From Acidithiobacillus sp. (GTDB taxonomy: Bacteria; Pseudomonadota; Gammaproteobacteria; Acidithiobacillales; Acidithiobacillaceae): 38,656 bases of DNA. Position numbers and translations under genes: made by a program. Location: the NCBI RefSeq assembly GCF_023256195.1, contig NZ_JAGDWX010000008.1, forward strand, positions 1 to 38,656, read 5' to 3'. Shown here one piece after another: positions 30,720 to 38,656 of the stretch. The notes beneath the pieces are model-generated. The model saw only the letters and a program-made list of their open reading frames with translations, searched no databases and was not told where the DNA came from. Position 1 is the stretch's first letter. The number at the start of each line of letters is the position of its first letter.

Positions 30720-31844
30720 ATGCGCGGGTACGGTTGGGTACTGAGCTGGGTTCTGTTCTACGCCACGCTGTCACCGGCAGCCGCGGCAGCGAGCTTCTGG
30801 GGGGCATTTACCCCCCATGCGCACTTCGAGGGCGAATTCGTCGGCAACTTTGCCGGTGGGCTTGCGCGCGGCGGCACGGGAACGGCCTATTTCGAGGGCG
30901 GTTTCGATTGGGACAGTGAGGTCGCCGGCGCTTATCCCGGCGGCAAGGTCGTCGCCCGTTATCTGGCCGTGGACACGGGCCAGCCCGACCAGCTCTATGT
31001 GGGCGACGCGCAGGGGGTGAGCAATCTCACCACCGATTACAACATCAGTCGCCTGTACAAGCTCTATTACCGACAGAGCCTGGGTTCGTTCACCGCCCGC
31101 GTGGGGCTGCTCAATGCCAACGATTATTTCGACACGGTCGACACGGCCAGCTATCTGCTCTGCCCGTCCTATGGCATCTTTCCGGTTTGGAGCAGCAACC
31201 TGCCGGGCTCCAGCACCTATCCCTTTTCAAGCCTCGGCGCCATGGTGGCCATCGGCGGCGATCACCACCTGCTGGAGGCTGGGGTGTTCGGTGCCGATGC
31301 CATGCACCCCTACCGTCGGCCCCTCACTCACGGTGCGCTGATGCTGTTGCAATATACCCAGGCCGGCACACTCGGGGCCGGGGACTATACCGTCAAGCTG
31401 GGTGCCTTTCGCAACCGCCAGACCGCGGCATTGGCGGCCCAGCTCGGACCGCAGACCAGCGGCTTCTTTGGCGCGACGGAGTACCGCTTCCACGCCCTCG
31501 GTCTCGACTGGGGTGCCTTTCTGGTGGGCGGTGGTGCGCCCAAATCGGTCAATGCCGTACCCTGGTACGCGGGTGGAGGTCTACGTCTGAAGCACTGGTT
31601 TCCGGGCCGTCCCGAGGACGTGCTCTCCGCGGGTTTTTCCCGGGTGAGCCTGCGTGGTTTGCCCCACGCCGAAACCAACTACGAACTCACCGGTATCTTC
31701 GCGATCGGCCCAGGGGTGACCCTGCAGCCGGACATGCAGGTGATCGTCCACCCCGGTGGCAAACTGCCCACCGCTCTGGTGGGTATCCTACGGCTGGACA
31801 TCGACCTGGTTTCATTGGTCAAAAGCCAAGGAGTGGCCTTATGA
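30720..31844 (+). CDS. OprB-type outer-membrane porin
   Basis: 374 residues with a signal peptide (hydrophobic run residues 7-24, AAAAA just before the likely cleavage site). The mature part looks like the carbohydrate-selective porin OprB family: FEGEFVGNFAGGLARGG near the start of the mature chain, FDWD..VAGAYPGG, VGDAQGVSN, RLYKLYYRQ, FTARVGLLNANDYFD and a repeated pattern of short amphipathic strands to the C-terminus. It should form a beta-barrel in the outer membrane. ATG 30720 has GAGGAGG 4 bases upstream. Its stop overlaps the start of the first CorA gene (ATGA), so porin and CorA proteins are translationally coupled. A carbohydrate role would be odd here; a pore for metal ions or their complexes is the simplest reading of the context. 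Good family call, open substrate. Confidence 0.82.
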   Translation: MRGYGWVLSWVLFYATLSPAAAAASFWGAFTPHAHFEGEFVGNFAGGLARGGTGTAYFEGGFDWDSEVAGAYPGGKVVARYLAVDTGQPDQLYVGDAQGVSNLTTDYNISRLYKLYYRQSLGSFTARVGLLNANDYFDTVDTASYLLCPSYGIFPVWSSNLPGSSTYPFSSLGAMVAIGGDHHLLEAGVFGADAMHPYRRPLTHGALMLLQYTQAGTLGAGDYTVKLGAFRNRQTAALAAQLGPQTSGFFGATEYRFHALGLDWGAFLVGGGAPKSVNAVPWYAGGGLRLKHWFPGRPEDVLSAGFSRVSLRGLPHAETNYELTGIFAIGPGVTLQPDMQVIVHPGGKLPTALVGILRLDIDLVSLVKSQGVAL

Positions 31845-32776
31845 GCACCGTGCTGAAGGATACGCCACAAGCCCTTCCCATCGGTCCGCAGCGTCTTATG
31901 GCGGCGGGCTGGATCTGGCTCTACCAGCCCGATGCTGCCAGCCTCCAGAAGCTTGCGGCCGAGCTGGACGTGGATGAGGATTTTCTCTTCGACATCCTGG
32001 ACCCTGACGAGAATCCTCGCCTGCAGCGGGAGGATGACCACCTTCTGGGAATCCTGCCGGTCCCGGTCCGCCGTGACGACGACGATGGCTGGCTACTCCG
32101 CCCCCTGGGTTTCGTCCTGCAAGGGGAGACTCTGGTGACCATCAGCACCGTACAATGGACCTTCCTCCACGAGCTTTTTGCCACGGCGGGCAAGGATACA
32201 GCGTCCGCAGGGGCACAACGGCGCAACCTGCTGCGTATCGTCCAGGCTATCACCGAAATTTACGAGCAGGCCCTGGACGATCTGGTCCAGCGCATGGTGC
32301 GGCTGGAGGAGCTGCTGGACAGCACCCAGAGCAACGACGATATGTTCCGCTTGCTGGAGGTGGGCAAGGCGGCCCTGCAGATGCACGCCGCCCTGGCGGG
32401 GAACGTGGCCGTCGTTTTCAAGCTGTCGCGCCACCGCCAGTTGGCCTGGGAAAAAGATGAAAAGCGTCGTCTGAATCTCCTGGTGGCCGACCTGCAGGCC
32501 GTACACGAGCGTGCCGAGGTGCTCTCGCGCACCATGAACAGCACCATGGACGCTTACGGTGGTATGGTGCAGAACAATATCAACCATGGCCTGAAGGTGC
32601 TGACGACTTTGGCGTTGGTCCTCTACATCCCGGCCTTGTTGGCTACACTCTACGGTGTCAATCCGCCCATTCCCTTGCAGGACAAGCCCTGGATTTTCTG
32701 GGTCATTGTGATCGGCAGCTTCAGCCTGTCCGGTCTCATGGCGGCCGTCTTCCGCTACCGTCTCCGCTGGATCTGA
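31841..32776 (+). CDS. CorA-family protein 1 of 5 (filter triplet GVN)
   Basis: 311 residues with the CorA layout: soluble alpha/beta N-terminal domain (about 1-130), long helical stalk (about 130-250), two C-terminal transmembrane helices (about 253-271 and 286-305) and a basic C-terminus (RYRLRWI). The stalk-to-membrane junction keeps MDAYGGMVQNNINHGLK, typical of CorA. The selectivity-filter triplet, GMN in CorA, is GVN at 272-274 (YGVNPPIPLQD); ZntB-type members also vary at the middle residue. CorA proteins are pentameric Mg2+ (also Co2+/Ni2+) channels and ZntB a zinc transporter; the ion here is unknown. It starts inside the porin stop codon (ATGA). An apparent longer frame from 31187 is a shadow of the porin gene. 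Confidence 0.87.
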   Translation: MSTVLKDTPQALPIGPQRLMAAGWIWLYQPDAASLQKLAAELDVDEDFLFDILDPDENPRLQREDDHLLGILPVPVRRDDDDGWLLRPLGFVLQGETLVTISTVQWTFLHELFATAGKDTASAGAQRRNLLRIVQAITEIYEQALDDLVQRMVRLEELLDSTQSNDDMFRLLEVGKAALQMHAALAGNVAVVFKLSRHRQLAWEKDEKRRLNLLVADLQAVHERAEVLSRTMNSTMDAYGGMVQNNINHGLKVLTTLALVLYIPALLATLYGVNPPIPLQDKPWIFWVIVIGSFSLSGLMAAVFRYRLRWI

Positions 32777-32794
32777 ACCACGGGAGGAACTCGT

Positions 32795-33727
32795 ATGTCG
32801 GAATCCCTCAAACTCGTCGTCAGCCGCAGCGGCAGCGCCGACCCCTGCGCCACTTGGCAGCACCGGACCGTGGCCGACGATGCCGCGCTCGCCGCCACGG
32901 CCAGCGAGATGGGCCTGAGTGAAGCATTCCTGCGCCAATGTCTGGACCCCGATGAGATTCCCCACATCGATCGTGAGGGCGAGCAGATCCTGCTGCTGCT
33001 CCAGGCGCCATGGACGCACGAGGAGGCCACGGCCCCGCTTTTCATGGACACGGTTCCTCTGGGAATCCTCTTACGTCCGGCGGGGGTCGTCACCATCAGC
33101 GCCAAGCCCCTGCCGCTGTGGGATCGTCTGCACCGGGAGCTGTGCGGGGAGGGCGCCCGTAGCCTGCAGCGGGAAGCCTTTCTCGCGCGATTCTTCACGG
33201 AGCTCGCGCATGATTTCCTGGGCGCCATCGATCGCCTGGAGGCACAATTGGAAGTCGCCAAGGAGCAACTGCGTCGCTCCCAGAGCAATGCCGAGTTCTT
33301 TCGCCTGCTCTCCCTGCAGAAGAGCCTGATCTATCTGACAGCGGCACTGCGCGGCAATCTAGCCACGGGCGAGCGCTTGCTGCACTCGCCGCGCTGGCAG
33401 GGCAATGCCGAGGAACAGGAGCAATTGCGCGATGCCTTGGAGGATCTGCGTCAGGCTCGGGATACCGCCGAACTCATGACCAGCACCACCACCAACGCCA
33501 TGGACGCCTTTGCCGGCACCTTGCAGAACAATATCACCGTCGCCATCCGCGTCGTCACGGCCTGGACCGTGGTCATCACCGTTCCCATCGCCGTGATTTC
33601 CATCATGGCCATGAACACACCCCTGCCGCTGCACGACTGGCCTTATGCCTGGCCGGTACTCATGGGCGGCTCATTCGTGGCATCGGGGCTGCTCTATCTG
33701 GCCCTGCGTCGCAGTCAATGGTTGTGA
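32795..33727 (+). CDS. CorA-family protein 2 of 5 (filter triplet AMN)
   Basis: 310 residues, CorA architecture: N-terminal domain with CLDPDEIPHIDREGEQILLLLQAP (a standard CorA DPxExPx(I/L) segment), stalk helices, AMDAFAGTLQNNITVAIR at the membrane junction, and two transmembrane helices (about 255-272 and 286-303) ending RRSQWL. The filter triplet is AMN at 272-274 (MAMNTPLPLHD), so the first Gly of GMN is Ala while Asn is kept. The C-terminal 130 residues look closest to protein 3 of the array. It begins 18 bases after protein 1, with GGGAGGAA upstream of ATG 32795. Likely an inner-membrane divalent-cation channel subunit; the substrate is not deducible. Confidence 0.87.
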   Translation: MSESLKLVVSRSGSADPCATWQHRTVADDAALAATASEMGLSEAFLRQCLDPDEIPHIDREGEQILLLLQAPWTHEEATAPLFMDTVPLGILLRPAGVVTISAKPLPLWDRLHRELCGEGARSLQREAFLARFFTELAHDFLGAIDRLEAQLEVAKEQLRRSQSNAEFFRLLSLQKSLIYLTAALRGNLATGERLLHSPRWQGNAEEQEQLRDALEDLRQARDTAELMTSTTTNAMDAFAGTLQNNITVAIRVVTAWTVVITVPIAVISIMAMNTPLPLHDWPYAWPVLMGGSFVASGLLYLALRRSQWL

Positions 33728-33752
33728 GTGAAGCCATTCTGGAGCGCGATAT

Positions 33753-34700
33753 ATGAAAGAAGCAATGCTCGAAGGCCTCGGCGCCGGCGCCGAAATTCCG
33801 CTCAGCCCCGATCCGCAAGGCAAGGAACGGCGTTGGCTCAGCATCCCGCAGATGGAACCGGCGGAGCTTCCTTCGCTCGGTCGGCAGTTGGGGGTAGATC
33901 CCGGTTTCCTGGGCGACGCCCTGGATCGACACGAACGCCCCAGCCTGCACCGGGAGGGTGAGACCACCATCATCCTGCTGCGCGTACCGCTGCTTTCGGC
34001 CGAGCAGCCTGGCCCTTCCTGGGTAACGGTGCCGCTGGGCATCCTCCTGCAAAAGTGGCAACTGGTGACCATCGAGACCCAAGCCTTCGGCTTTCTCGAG
34101 CAGCTGCGGGCCCGGCTCGGCAAGCGGGCCCGGCGCATCCGCCTGCGCGAGGCGCTGGCAGAGCTGCTGCAGGCCATGGCACAGGAATACCTGCGCTCGC
34201 TGCGCCAGGTAAAGAAGGAAATGGACGCGGTGGAACACGATCTGCGCGCATCGCAGAACAACGACGATTTCTACCGCATGGTGTCCCTGCAGAATACCCT
34301 GACGCATTTTGCCGCCGCCCTGCGCGGCAACATCGGTGTGCTGCAGCGGCTCCTGCAAATGCCCGTCTTCCTCGACGACAAGGAGGATCTCGAGGACGTT
34401 GCCGACGCCCTCGTGGATCTGCAGCAGGCGCGGGAAATGGCGGAGCTCTATGCCGCTACCCTGACGGATCTGCTGGACGCCTATGTGGGTGTGCTGCAGA
34501 ACAACATCGCCAATCGCGTCAAGAAACTCACGGCCTGGACGGTGGTATTGGCGGTATCGCTGATGTCCACGAGTCTCTATGGCATGAACGTCCCTTTGCC
34601 CTGGCAACACTGGCGGTACATCACTCCCACCCTGGTGGGCGGCGGTTTCCTCATCGCGGCGGCGATCTACGTCTACTTCCGTCGGCACGACTGGATCTGA
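33753..34700 (+). CDS. CorA-family protein 3 of 5 (canonical GMN)
   Basis: 315 residues and the only one of the five with the canonical CorA triplet, GMN at 277-279 in SLYGMNVPLPWQHW. An N-terminal domain with ALDRHERPSLHREGETTIILLRVP, a stalk with QNNDDFYRMVSLQNTL, the junction LLDAYVGVLQNNIANRVKK, two transmembrane helices and the C-terminal YFRRHDWI all fit CorA. The usual acidic MPE after GMN is replaced by PLPWQHW, so the periplasmic loop lacks the acidic residues thought to attract cations. It lies 25 bases after protein 2, with GGAG 8 bases before ATG 33753. It is the best candidate for a conducting Mg2+ channel subunit in the set. Confidence 0.9.
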   Translation: MKEAMLEGLGAGAEIPLSPDPQGKERRWLSIPQMEPAELPSLGRQLGVDPGFLGDALDRHERPSLHREGETTIILLRVPLLSAEQPGPSWVTVPLGILLQKWQLVTIETQAFGFLEQLRARLGKRARRIRLREALAELLQAMAQEYLRSLRQVKKEMDAVEHDLRASQNNDDFYRMVSLQNTLTHFAAALRGNIGVLQRLLQMPVFLDDKEDLEDVADALVDLQQAREMAELYAATLTDLLDAYVGVLQNNIANRVKKLTAWTVVLAVSLMSTSLYGMNVPLPWQHWRYITPTLVGGGFLIAAAIYVYFRRHDWI

Positions 34701-34711
34701 GGAGGACGGTC

Positions 34712-35653
34712 ATGAGCGCGTGGTTCTTCAAGAACGATCAAGGCTGGCTGGATGTCGACCACTACGCGGGCCCGGGCATCTATCTGCTCGAGCCTGCCGA
34801 CACCGGCATGGTCGCCGCCCTGGACGCCGCCCTCGGCGCTCAGCTGCCGCAACTGGCCTTGCCGGCACAAGCGCCACGGCAGATACCGCGCCTGGTCTTG
34901 GATGCCAATGGTGTGCTGGCATTGCGCCTCAATGTCGTCGTTCCGCGGCGCGAGCCGGAACTGCGGCGCAGCGAGGAGGAGCTGCTGCAGGCGCGCCTGA
35001 TCTGGGCGCGAGACCATCTGATTCTGGTAGCCCCGCAGCAGCACTGGCGGCGCATCGTTCGCGACAGCCTCGAACTGGATCCCCATGCGCCCCAGGACAA
35101 AATCCTGCAGCGCATTCTGCTGACGGCCATCTACAGCCACGAGAGTGCGACCCAGCGCATCGTCGCGGAACTACGCGAACTGCGCAGTGCCCTGCGTAGC
35201 TCACTCAATAACCGAGAGATGCGTCGCATCGTGGTCCTGAACCGTCGCCTTGGCGAGCTCGTGGTATCCATTCGCGATCTCGGCCTCACCCTGCGCAGTC
35301 TGCGCGCCGAATTGGACGACGATGACCCCCTGCGCAATCGTATCGACGAGATCTACGACGAGCAAAGGCGCATCGAGGAGATTCTGACCCTGATCTGGGA
35401 TCGTTATCTTGGCGTGACCAACGCCTACGCCGGCATCATCCAGAACAACGCCCACACCATCATGAAGGTCATGACCGCCTACCTGGCCTTTCTCATGGTA
35501 CCCATAGCCTTGATCATGCCCTTTCACATGAACACCGTCTTGCCCATGCAGCACTTCCACTACGCCTGGTATGTGCTCCTGCTCTACAGCTTCGGTACCT
35601 CGGGCTGGTTCTTTTTCCAGTGGGGACGCAAGCGCGGTTTTTTTCACCTTTGA
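34712..35653 (+). CDS. CorA-family protein 4 of 5 (filter triplet HMN)
   Basis: 313 residues. The N-terminal domain is recognisably CorA-like but diverged from proteins 1-3: the DPxExP segment is absent or altered and RLVLDANGVLALRLNVVVP takes the central-strand place. The stalk carries SLNNREMRRIVVLNRRL and a DDDDP acidic turn (202-206). The membrane junction NAYAGIIQNNAHTIMK is conserved. The filter triplet is HMN at 272-274 (PFHMNTVLPMQHFHY), with three more His/aromatic residues in the loop, which could favour a transition metal or respond to pH. The C-terminus is GRKRGFFHL. It starts 11 bases after protein 3 with GAGGAGG; the longer frame from 34055 is a shadow of protein 3. The family is sound, the substrate unknown. 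Confidence 0.85.
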   Translation: MSAWFFKNDQGWLDVDHYAGPGIYLLEPADTGMVAALDAALGAQLPQLALPAQAPRQIPRLVLDANGVLALRLNVVVPRREPELRRSEEELLQARLIWARDHLILVAPQQHWRRIVRDSLELDPHAPQDKILQRILLTAIYSHESATQRIVAELRELRSALRSSLNNREMRRIVVLNRRLGELVVSIRDLGLTLRSLRAELDDDDPLRNRIDEIYDEQRRIEEILTLIWDRYLGVTNAYAGIIQNNAHTIMKVMTAYLAFLMVPIALIMPFHMNTVLPMQHFHYAWYVLLLYSFGTSGWFFFQWGRKRGFFHL

Positions 35654-35663
35654 GGAGGGGGAT

Positions 35664-36581
35664 ATGCTGCAGATCATTCGCAATGCTTTTCTGACGGGCA
35701 ACGATCGGGCGCGCGACTGGATGAAAATCGCGGCACCCTCGCCCATGGAGCTCAGCCAGGCCGCCACCACCATCCAGGCGGAAGAAAGTTTCCTCCGTCG
35801 CCGTCTCCAGGGCGGACCGGTGCGCCCCGTGGTGGAGGACTCCGGTTTTTTGACCTTTCAGATGTTGGTGCCGACCCATCAGGCCAAGGCGGGGCAGGTG
35901 GATTTTCACCTCGTCCCTCTCAATATCTTTCTGGTGCCTCACTATTTCGTGACCCTGAGCGCGGAACCTCTGGGCTTTCTCGACACCATTATCCGCCCCG
36001 AAGCGCCCATCCGCCGTTGGGAGCTGATTCTACGCATCGCCAAGGAGATCGCGCTGCGCTACGTGCACATGGCCAGGGACGTGGCCAAGGAGACAGAGAG
36101 CATCGAGGCGGAGCTCAAGGTGGCTCAGCGCCACCACGTCATCTATCGGGCGCTGGAAATCAACGACCGTCTGTTGCAGCTGGATATGGGGCTGCTGCAG
36201 CTGGAATACGTCATCGACGAGATGCGCGAACGTATGCCCAAGGATTCACCGAGCTTCATGGAGGAGTTCACGGATGCCCGCATCGAGATCCGTCAGGCGC
36301 GGGAGCAGGTGGATCTGGAGCAGCAGACCCTCAACGAGATCATGGATGCCTATACCTACATCATCCACAACAACGTCAACCACATCTTCAAATTCATGGC
36401 GGCCTTGATCATCCTGGCGTCCATCCCCATCATCGTCTGCGATTCGGCCTCCATGAACGTCCCGTTGGGCGCCTTTCGGACCTCGCCCTGGGGTTTCCCC
36501 CTGGATGTGGGCTTCCTGCTGGTGGTAGAGGCCGTCACCGCCTGGGTTTTTTATCGCAAGGGATGGCTCACCCTCGGCTGA
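35664..36581 (+). CDS. CorA-family protein 5 of 5 (filter triplet SMN)
   Basis: 305 residues, the most diverged of the set. It has a shorter N-terminal domain (FLTFQMLVP, FHLVPLNIFLVPHYFVTLS) and a stalk rich in Glu/Arg heptads (about 120-225). The junction IMDAYTYIIHNNVNHIFK is clearly CorA-type, followed by transmembrane helices at about 244-262 and 280-297 and a basic tail (YRKGWLTLG). The filter triplet is SMN at 263-265 (DSASMNVPLGAFRTSPWG); the following loop lacks the PLP-aromatic pattern of the other four, and an Asp (D260) sits just before the triplet. ATG 35664 has GAGGAGGGGG upstream and lies 10 bases after protein 4. It ends the operon, 21 bases from the convergent NRAMP-like gene. 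Confidence 0.83.
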   Translation: MLQIIRNAFLTGNDRARDWMKIAAPSPMELSQAATTIQAEESFLRRRLQGGPVRPVVEDSGFLTFQMLVPTHQAKAGQVDFHLVPLNIFLVPHYFVTLSAEPLGFLDTIIRPEAPIRRWELILRIAKEIALRYVHMARDVAKETESIEAELKVAQRHHVIYRALEINDRLLQLDMGLLQLEYVIDEMRERMPKDSPSFMEEFTDARIEIRQAREQVDLEQQTLNEIMDAYTYIIHNNVNHIFKFMAALIILASIPIIVCDSASMNVPLGAFRTSPWGFPLDVGFLLVVEAVTAWVFYRKGWLTLG

Positions 36582-36602: not shown

Positions 36603-37862
36603 TCACCAGCCGGGAACGCTGGTAATGCCGCCGTAGACGCCGAGGCCCGCGGTGAGAAGGCTGACCCCGACTACCAGCCAGAGGTACCAGCCCCGCAAGC
36701 GGTGCTCGGGCGGCAGGGCGTGGATGGCCAGAGCCACCAGAAAACCCAGCACCAGAGGCAGCAGCAGCGCGTTCATCACCTCCACGGCAATATCCAGGGC
36801 GACCAGATTGGGGATCAGGGCAACGGCCAGGGCACCCGCAAGGACGATGAAGGTGTAGGTCCCGTAGAACCAAGGCGCCTCACGCGGATGATACTCCAGC
36901 GAATGGCGAAACCCCGTTACCTCACCCCAGCCCCAGGCACCGGCCAGAGAGGCGACGATGGCCGCCACCATGCCGGCGCCCACAATGCCTACGGAAAAGA
37001 TCAAATAGCCCCAGGTGCTGCCCAGGAAAGGAACGATGGCCTCCGATAGTTGCTGCACGGTATTGAGGGGAGCGTTGGGATTGCGCAGGGCGATGGTGGC
37101 GGCAACGGCCACGAGCACCGCGGCCATGATGGACTGGGTGACGATGGCGCCAAAAGCGGTGTCCCAGCGCGCCTCTCGATACTGTTCCGGCTGCAGACCC
37201 TTATCGGCGACGGCCGACTGTTGGTAGAAGACCATCCAGGGCATGATCACGGCACCGATGTTGGCTGCCACCAACATCATATAATGGCGATTGCCTACCG
37301 GGATCTCGAGGAAATCCCGCCCCATCTGGCCGAGATTGGGATGGCTGACGATGGCAATAGCGAAGAAGACCAGTTCAAAGAGACCCAGGATGAGCGCGAT
37401 GCGCTCCACCCGTCGGTAGGAGCCGGTCCACACGATGAGCAGCAGCGCCGCTGCTGCCAGGGCAATGCCCACGCCTCGCGGTAAACCGTAGAGCTCGCTG
37501 ACGCCGGCCATACCCGAGAACTCCGTGAGCAGTGCACCGGTGGTGGCGATGCTCAGCCCAGCCACGGAAAGATAGGCCCAGCCGCCGCCGAAACGCTCCC
37601 GGATCAATTCTCCGTGACCCTTTCCCGTGAAAATGCCCAGACGTACCGTCAGTTCCTGGACGATGAACAAGATCGGCATGAGGATGAACTGCAGCAGCAA
37701 TAGCCGATATCCCCACTGGGCCCCGCTCTGCGCCGCTGTGATGATGCTGCCGACGTCGGTATCGGCGAGCATGACCACAAGACCTGGACCGAGCACGGCC
37801 AGAAAGGTTTTCCAGTGCCGACGGGGCAGGGAGCTTGTGGGGTGTTTGGCGGCAAGAACCAT
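36603..37862 (-). CDS. Atypical NRAMP-superfamily metal transporter
   Basis: 419 residues with 11 or so hydrophobic helices and the NRAMP fold signature. The TM1 metal motif, DPGN in MntH, reads DVGS (36-39, in LADTDVGSIITAAQ), so the Asp and Gly are kept but Pro and Asn are lost. The TM6 MPH motif reads MPW (207-209), keeping Met but not His. These changes set it apart from MntH-type Mn/Fe transporters and suggest a separate clade with other selectivity; Mg2+ is one possibility, since NRAMP-related Mg2+ transporters exist. ATG 37862 lacks a strong Shine-Dalgarno sequence. It has a good promoter with a Fur-box-like operator and lies between the CorA array and an MgtC gene. The superfamily is firm, the ion unknown. 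Confidence 0.85.
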   Translation of the reverse strand: MVLAAKHPTSSLPRRHWKTFLAVLGPGLVVMLADTDVGSIITAAQSGAQWGYRLLLLQFILMPILFIVQELTVRLGIFTGKGHGELIRERFGGGWAYLSVAGLSIATTGALLTEFSGMAGVSELYGLPRGVGIALAAAALLLIVWTGSYRRVERIALILGLFELVFFAIAIVSHPNLGQMGRDFLEIPVGNRHYMMLVAANIGAVIMPWMVFYQQSAVADKGLQPEQYREARWDTAFGAIVTQSIMAAVLVAVAATIALRNPNAPLNTVQQLSEAIVPFLGSTWGYLIFSVGIVGAGMVAAIVASLAGAWGWGEVTGFRHSLEYHPREAPWFYGTYTFIVLAGALAVALIPNLVALDIAVEVMNALLLPLVLGFLVALAIHALPPEHRLRGWYLWLVVGVSLLTAGLGVYGGITSVPGW

Positions 37863-38062: not shown

Positions 38063-38656
38063 TCATCCGCCGCCAGGATTCTGATTCCAGAAAATCTGCT
38101 GCACGCCGGGGATCTGCTCCAGGGCATGGATGGCTCGATCCAGTTCCTCTTCCGAAATGTGGCTGGGCAGCAGGGTGGCCCGCATTTCCGTCTCCACCGA
38201 ACCGAAGGGGCGCATGCTGAATTCGCGCACCGGGTAGCCCGCGGCATCCAGGATGTCCGAGGCTTGCTCCTGGATACCGCCCTCCAGACCCCGGCGAACG
38301 ATAAGAAAGACCGTGGCTGTGGTTTCGGTACTGTCACCCGTGGGTAGACGATTGATCTGGTTGGCGACGGGGCGCAAAAGAGTATTGGCCGCAAGGACGA
38401 AAGCTGCGGCGATGATGGCCGGCGCCCATTGCCCCGAGCCAGCGCAGGCACCCACCGCCGCCGAACCCCAGATGGTGGCGGCAGTATTCAGGCCGCGCAC
38501 ATTCACCCCCTCCTTCATGATGGTGCCCGCGCCCAGGAAGCCGATGCCTGAGATGACATAAGCGACGATGCGCGCAAGCTCCGGATCGCCACCGATTCGC
38601 CAACCCAAATTCACGAATATGGCAGCGCCAACGGCTACCAGAGTGTTGGTGCGCAA
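38063..38656 (-). CDS. MgtC/SapB family protein (N-terminus outside window)
   Basis: 197 residues are visible and the frame is open at the right edge. The first codons read LRTNTLVAVGAA, an internal MgtC motif that normally follows about 40-50 residues of membrane segment, so the true start lies beyond the window. YVISGIGFLGAGTIMKEG and VRGLNTAATIW are the family hallmarks. The C-terminal part (about 115-195 of the visible chain) is an ACT-like cytoplasmic domain. MgtC proteins help survival at low Mg2+ and in acid and modulate ATP synthase or phosphate uptake in pathogens; others have unclear roles. Its place beside the CorA array and NRAMP-like gene strengthens a divalent-metal theme. Its stop is 200 bases from the NRAMP start, so co-transcription is possible but not needed. 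Confidence 0.9.
   Translation of the reverse strand: MRTNTLVAVGAAIFVNLGWRIGGDPELARIVAYVISGIGFLGAGTIMKEGVNVRGLNTAATIWGSAAVGACAGSGQWAPAIIAAAFVLAANTLLRPVANQINRLPTGDSTETTATVFLIVRRGLEGGIQEQASDILDAAGYPVREFSMRPFGSVETEMRATLLPSHISEEELDRAIHALEQIPGVQQIFWNQNPGGG

Follow-up and report, generated by a model that had tools for sequence, protein, structure and literature searches.

An ordered cluster of four or five divergent CorA-family genes in acidithiobacilli: a candidate mixed channel

Textbooks present CorA as a symmetric homopentamer; the way in which this symmetry is broken when the channel opens is still an open question. In the stretch of DNA analysed here (the window, 38,656 nucleotides), five CorA-family genes with five different filter triplets follow one another between positions 31841 and 36581. 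Do such genes encode separate channels, or subunits of a mixed one? The sequence comparisons described below suggest that these ordered, position-specific paralogues with altered filters work together.

The cluster itself has already been reported. The accessible text of a 2017 genome comparison mentions a 'cor cluster' of acidithiobacilli that shows conserved synteny and comprises four corA genes, or five in the case of A. caldus, and places it in one sentence under metal resistance (Mn2+/Zn2+) (PMC5468388). The first-pass annotation, which knew of no described tandem five-gene CorA system, is therefore not supported on this point. The genes are the same, and the conserved order of linked corA-like genes is matched here. 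Filters, position clades and assembly are not analysed in the accessible text of that paper. With respect to that text, five points are new: that each position forms a clade, the series of filters, the missing filter Asn at position 4, the all-or-none pattern of occurrence and the heteromer hypothesis.

Organisation of the cluster

The five CorA-family open reading frames are intact and lie on the same strand, with intergenic gaps of 18, 25, 11 and 10 bases from gene 1 to gene 5 (Table 1). Each gene encodes two C-terminal hydrophobic segments and a basic end. The stalk-TM1 junctions read, in gene order, MDAY..NN, MDAF..NN, LDAY..NN, TNAY..NN and MDAY..NN. Open reading frames and Pfam matches thus agree with the first description of the locus, which had listed five co-directional CorA genes with the triplets GVN, AMN, GMN, HMN and SMN, stalk junctions, helices and basic tails. 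Pairwise identity among the five proteins is 17-37%. All Pfam CorA matches (67-151 bits; E-values from 5e-44 to 2e-18) are far above the cut-off of 27 bits, showing that the CorA assignment of the five is not due to chance. The best window score against the NCBI magnesium/cobalt transporter CorA equivalog TIGR00383 is 86.2 bits, below the cut-off of 200.75 bits. The ZntB model NF007092 (cut-off 292 bits) is matched by position 1 alone, at 32.1 bits.

Table 1. Features of the window in and around the CorA-family cluster
Feature	Positions	Strand	Remarks
OprB-family porin	30720-31844	+	Pfam OprB E 4.9e-16
CorA position 1, filter GVN, 311 aa	31841-32776	+	Pfam CorA E 5.9e-43
CorA extra copy, filter AMN, 310 aa	32795-33727	+	Pfam CorA E 2.9e-42
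CorA position 3, filter GMN, 315 aa	33753-34700	+	Pfam CorA E 5e-44
CorA position 4, filter HMN, 313 aa	34712-35653	+	Pfam CorA E 2.3e-18
CorA position 5, filter SMN, 305 aa	35664-36581	+	Pfam CorA E 4.6e-22
NRAMP-family protein	36603-37862	-	scores below all but distant NCBI cut-offs
MgtC-family gene	38063-38656	-	adjoins NRAMP gene

The window genome (1.98 Mb, 99.99% complete) has these five CorA genes only. Neither MgtE nor an MgtA or other P-type Mg2+ ATPase scoring over cut-off was found in it. Because the cluster is the only CorA source in such a genome, some of its products should conduct. Upstream of the operon, the search for a Mg2+ riboswitch returned only two weak, unrelated Rfam matches at E <= 1. 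A consensus scan for promoters and terminators gave no more sites than shuffled sequence.

In the window's genus the cluster is preceded by a porin and followed by NRAMP-family and MgtC genes. The porin stop overlaps CorA gene 1 by 4 bases, as it does in the congeneric locus L036. An OprB-type porin adjoins the cluster in this genus only and not in the other genera; it may serve the uptake system as an outer-membrane partner. In Acidithiobacillus the flanks carry methyltransferase, GidA-like, ParA/ParB-like and iron-sulphur (glycolate-oxidase-like) genes, the names GidA, ParA/ParB and glycolate oxidase being assigned by eye from the sequences. In Igneacidithiobacillus a photolyase-related gene is found. 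As the flanks vary between genera while the cluster stays whole, the conserved unit is the CorA cluster itself.

Distribution and descent of the positions

A congeneric genome with a chromosome of 2,777,717 bases, which we take to be Acidithiobacillus caldus ATCC 51756, carries the same five CorA genes as the window. In the sister genera Acidithiobacillus and Igneacidithiobacillus, four genes are found (GVN, GMN, HMx and A/SMN). The four-gene Acidithiobacillus include A. ferrivorans, ferrianus, sulfurivorans, concretivorus, marinus, montserratensis, ferruginosus and ferriphilus. The number of exactly five genes, from which the first-pass annotation had argued, is thus limited to the window's genus.

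The order of the genes is conserved. All 19 sister-genus clusters that are not cut before position 3 share one gene order. A profile of position 4 finds 22 genomes, all within the family and the same ones that hold the other positions. Twenty-one of these 22 show the core order 1-3-4-5, including the two five-gene clusters of the window's genus and that of genome G028, whose position 1 is truncated where the contig stops. In the 22nd, positions 4 and 5 only are visible, on a contig that starts inside position 4. The recurring order looked for at the outset is therefore found in 21 clusters of the family. In seven family genomes without the cluster, some of them incomplete, no part of it was found.

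Positions 4 and 5 appear confined to this family. Among 84,980 species, 15 position-5 loci were detected, 14 in Acidithiobacillus or Igneacidithiobacillus and one in a proteobacterial MAG consistent with family member G028. Among 185 genomes of the class, the position-4 profile matches one, the window's own. Hence neither type was found outside the family in these sets (84,980 species for position 5, 185 class genomes for position 4); the weak position-5 matches elsewhere are ordinary CorA. No tandem CorA cluster was seen among the matches listed for 249 genomes of the phylum. In another gammaproteobacterium, two canonical CorA genes lie next to each other with about 120 bases between the matches (L009, G044:C10:374512-376370), showing that tandem CorA pairs exist elsewhere.

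Across all genera, spacing between the cluster genes ranges from -10 to 30 bases; such short gaps and overlaps fit coupled translation. In Igneacidithiobacillus (L038, L040, L043, L045), the first CorA gene runs 4 bases into the second, stop on start, which packs the two more tightly than in the other genera.

The descent of each position was followed in a maximum-likelihood tree built from 75 CorA proteins. Support is 100/99 for position 1, 99/88 for position 3 together with the AMN copy, and 100/100 for each of positions 4 and 5. Each core position thus forms its own clade, as a system of fixed positions had led one to expect. Trees uniting the genes of one genus are rejected (p-AU 4e-5 for the window's genus and 4e-4 for Acidithiobacillus), so that recent within-genus duplication, which had been named as a possible refutation of the idea, does not account for the cluster. 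The data would also allow a single origin for all the genes of the cluster (p-AU 0.52). The mutual placement of positions 4 and 5 is unsure because of their long branches.

The AMN extra copy falls inside the position-3 clade and occurs in the window's genus only. This placement makes it a paralogue of the GMN gene. In the window's genus, the grouping of AMN with GMN as a genus-specific pair is not rejected (p-AU 0.34), and the duplication may have occurred before or after the split of the genera. The ancestral cluster may accordingly have had four genes or five.

Of the sequences compared, those that come nearest to the cluster from outside belong to single CorA genes found in Clostridia and Bacteroidia. 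These proteins, annotated as 'magnesium transporter CorA family protein', are the closest by subfamily and have a GMNVP.P-type loop without the MPEL motif. Each locus examined has one such gene, with a G-x-N filter in every case. A single long-branched CorA of this type, with the loop GMNVKLPF, is also present in a small proteobacterial genome of 0.9 Mb (G499; L106/L121), where it was perhaps acquired horizontally.

Some sister-genus genomes have a further, unlinked canonical CorA of GMNFKYMPEL type or with GMNIDGIPLL (L022 and L026 in Acidithiobacillus, L014 and L016 in Igneacidithiobacillus); it is absent from the other Acidithiobacillus genomes and from the window's genus. As a candidate fifth subunit this protein was rejected, for it groups with canonical CorA, far from the cluster.

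Altered filters and the case for a mixed channel

The filter triplet is GVN in all 20 orthologues of position 1 and GMN in all 20 of position 3. At position 4, HMM is found in 14 of 21 orthologues, HME in 4 and HMN in 3, HME being the Igneacidithiobacillus form. Position 5 has AMN in 19 cases, which is the triplet of the genera other than the window's, and SMN in 2. The extra copy has AMN in both genomes. A GxN triplet is therefore present at positions 1 and 3 and absent from the AMN copy and from positions 4 and 5. The filter Asn had been described as invariant; this is true within the window, but in the family 18 of the 21 position-4 proteins carry HMM or HME.

The acidic LD..E.P motif of the cytosolic domain is kept by genes 1-3 and missing from genes 4 and 5 when the window genes are aligned to MjCorA. 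Throughout the family, positions 4 and 5 are the only members of the four-gene core to have lost the filter Gly and the acidic motif. They are also the two most divergent proteins. The AF2 model of position 4 has a pLDDT of 74.8 with TmCorA as best PDB matches; that of position 5 has a pLDDT of 81.5 with MjCorA (4ev6) as best match. Both positions are thus predicted to keep the whole CorA fold, with the alpha-beta-alpha domain, the stalk helix running into TM1 and a C-terminal TM2. Omega lies between 0.01 and 0.18 in all cluster genes and pairs. This purifying selection shows that no gene of the cluster is decaying, position 4 being the fastest evolving in most pairs.

From these comparisons, the best-supported reading, to which we give about even odds, is that the products co-assemble, in some stoichiometry, into a mixed CorA channel, the operon encoding one multi-subunit system. 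It continues the looser idea of the first-pass annotation, in which the subunits either assemble together or serve to regulate a conducting one. The reasons are joint ordered retention, likely coupled translation, fixed position identities, and the retention of proteins whose filter should fail in a five-copy ring. Indeed, the GMN motif is described as essential for permeation (PMC11919701). On the other hand, CorA-family members share broad substrates in transport assays (PMC6972854), so that a pore with an unusual triplet is not necessarily inactive. In yeast, Alr1 and Alr2 hetero-oligomerise (PMC12720413), which shows that mixed CorA-family oligomers exist in nature.

In such a system, the cluster would be the operon of one CorA-type divalent-cation channel, with Mg2+ as its most likely main substrate. 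The carbonyl and Asn ligands of the filter would come from position 1 (GVN) and from position 3 (GMN) together with its AMN copy. Positions 4 and 5 would dilute or break both the filter ring and the metal-sensor ring, and could thereby adjust conductance, selectivity or gating in acid surroundings rich in metals. Where the cluster has four genes, one type of subunit would have to occur at least twice in the ring; the doubling of the GMN position in the window's genus would permit, without proving, one subunit of each kind.

Several points speak against co-assembly. Order and joint retention are also expected of separate channels that are functionally linked, and joint absence follows when a single operon is lost or when assemblies are incomplete. 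Position 4 evolves faster, as would a part under looser constraint. Moreover, the four genes of two genera do not map one-to-one onto a pentamer. The one-of-each heteropentamer put forward by the first-pass annotation therefore cannot be the general rule. Its restricted form, an obligate one-of-each heteropentamer with an asymmetric filter in the window's genus, where doubling of GMN would have added the fifth gene to an older 2:1:1:1 channel and so provided a separate gene for every place in the ring, seems unlikely.

The main rival of the mixed channel is a set of four or five separate homopentamers with differing ion preference, co-expressed so as to equip the cell for metal uptake in acid, metal-rich habitats. 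We consider this possible, if rather less than probable. All the proteins are full-length CorA under purifying selection, and every position is marked by a triplet of its own, which does not vary at positions 1 and 3. Even the HME ring of Igneacidithiobacillus, with its five acidic residues, would be a conceivable divalent-ion site. However, separate channels could be lost one by one, and no genome retains only some of the positions. Position 4 is always retained despite the loss of a motif described as permeation-essential, and its triplet shifted between genera whereas those of positions 1 and 3 did not.

Alternatively, positions 1 and 3 could form ordinary channels, with positions 4 and 5 acting outside the pore as regulatory or assembly factors, for instance as brakes made in low amount. 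The loss of filter Gly and acidic sensor motif in just these two members of the four-gene core would agree with such a role, and yeast Lpe10p modulates Mrs2p according to a title cited in PMC9276622. Nevertheless, this arrangement appears unlikely: the predicted fold retains the stalk and both membrane helices, and the ribosome-binding sites of positions 4 and 5 are good and lie within the same operon, which argues against a much lower dosage. Export of metals (Mn2+ or Zn2+ resistance), as stated in the accessible text of the 2017 comparison (PMC5468388), is very improbable: the statement is there based on annotation, those CorA, ZntB and Mrs2 proteins that have been characterised import divalent cations (PMC6972854, PMC11919701), and the window genome lacks any further CorA as well as MgtE and an MgtA over cut-off.

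Relation to known systems and neighbouring metal genes

The cluster proteins share with the CorA homopentamers of known structure (TmCorA, 4i0u and 3jcf; MjCorA, 4ev6) the fold, the two membrane helices, the place of the GxN loop and a short basic C-terminus. TmCorA and MjCorA are each made from one gene as five identical GMN subunits, whereas four or five unlike subunits are encoded here, and three of the five window triplets are without Gly. The yeast pairs Alr1/Alr2 and Mrs2/Lpe10 are likewise unlike CorA-family paralogues, which associate with or modulate each other. However, each consists of two eukaryotic paralogues, whereas the present system comprises four or five linked bacterial genes whose products may associate.

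We know of no heteromeric CorA channel in bacteria, and a literature search for bacterial CorA heteropentamers gave nothing relevant. If the mixed channel is real, it would be the first known of its kind in bacteria. It would also be a ready-made tool, in which one subunit can be altered without five-fold repetition, and it might explain how divalent-cation entry is controlled in some extreme acidophiles. Even if the channels are separate, the clusters offer a natural series of filter variants (GVN, GMN, AMN, SMN, HMN, HMM and HME).

The NRAMP and MgtC genes lie side by side in both genomes of the window's genus, forming a small divalent-metal neighbourhood. Mg2+-transporting NRMTs carry the motifs DxxG/TxxA (PMC8806188). 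By eye, the metal-site motifs of the window NRAMP protein are DVGS and AVIM-PW, which differ both from the classical DxxN/AxxM and from the NRMT set.
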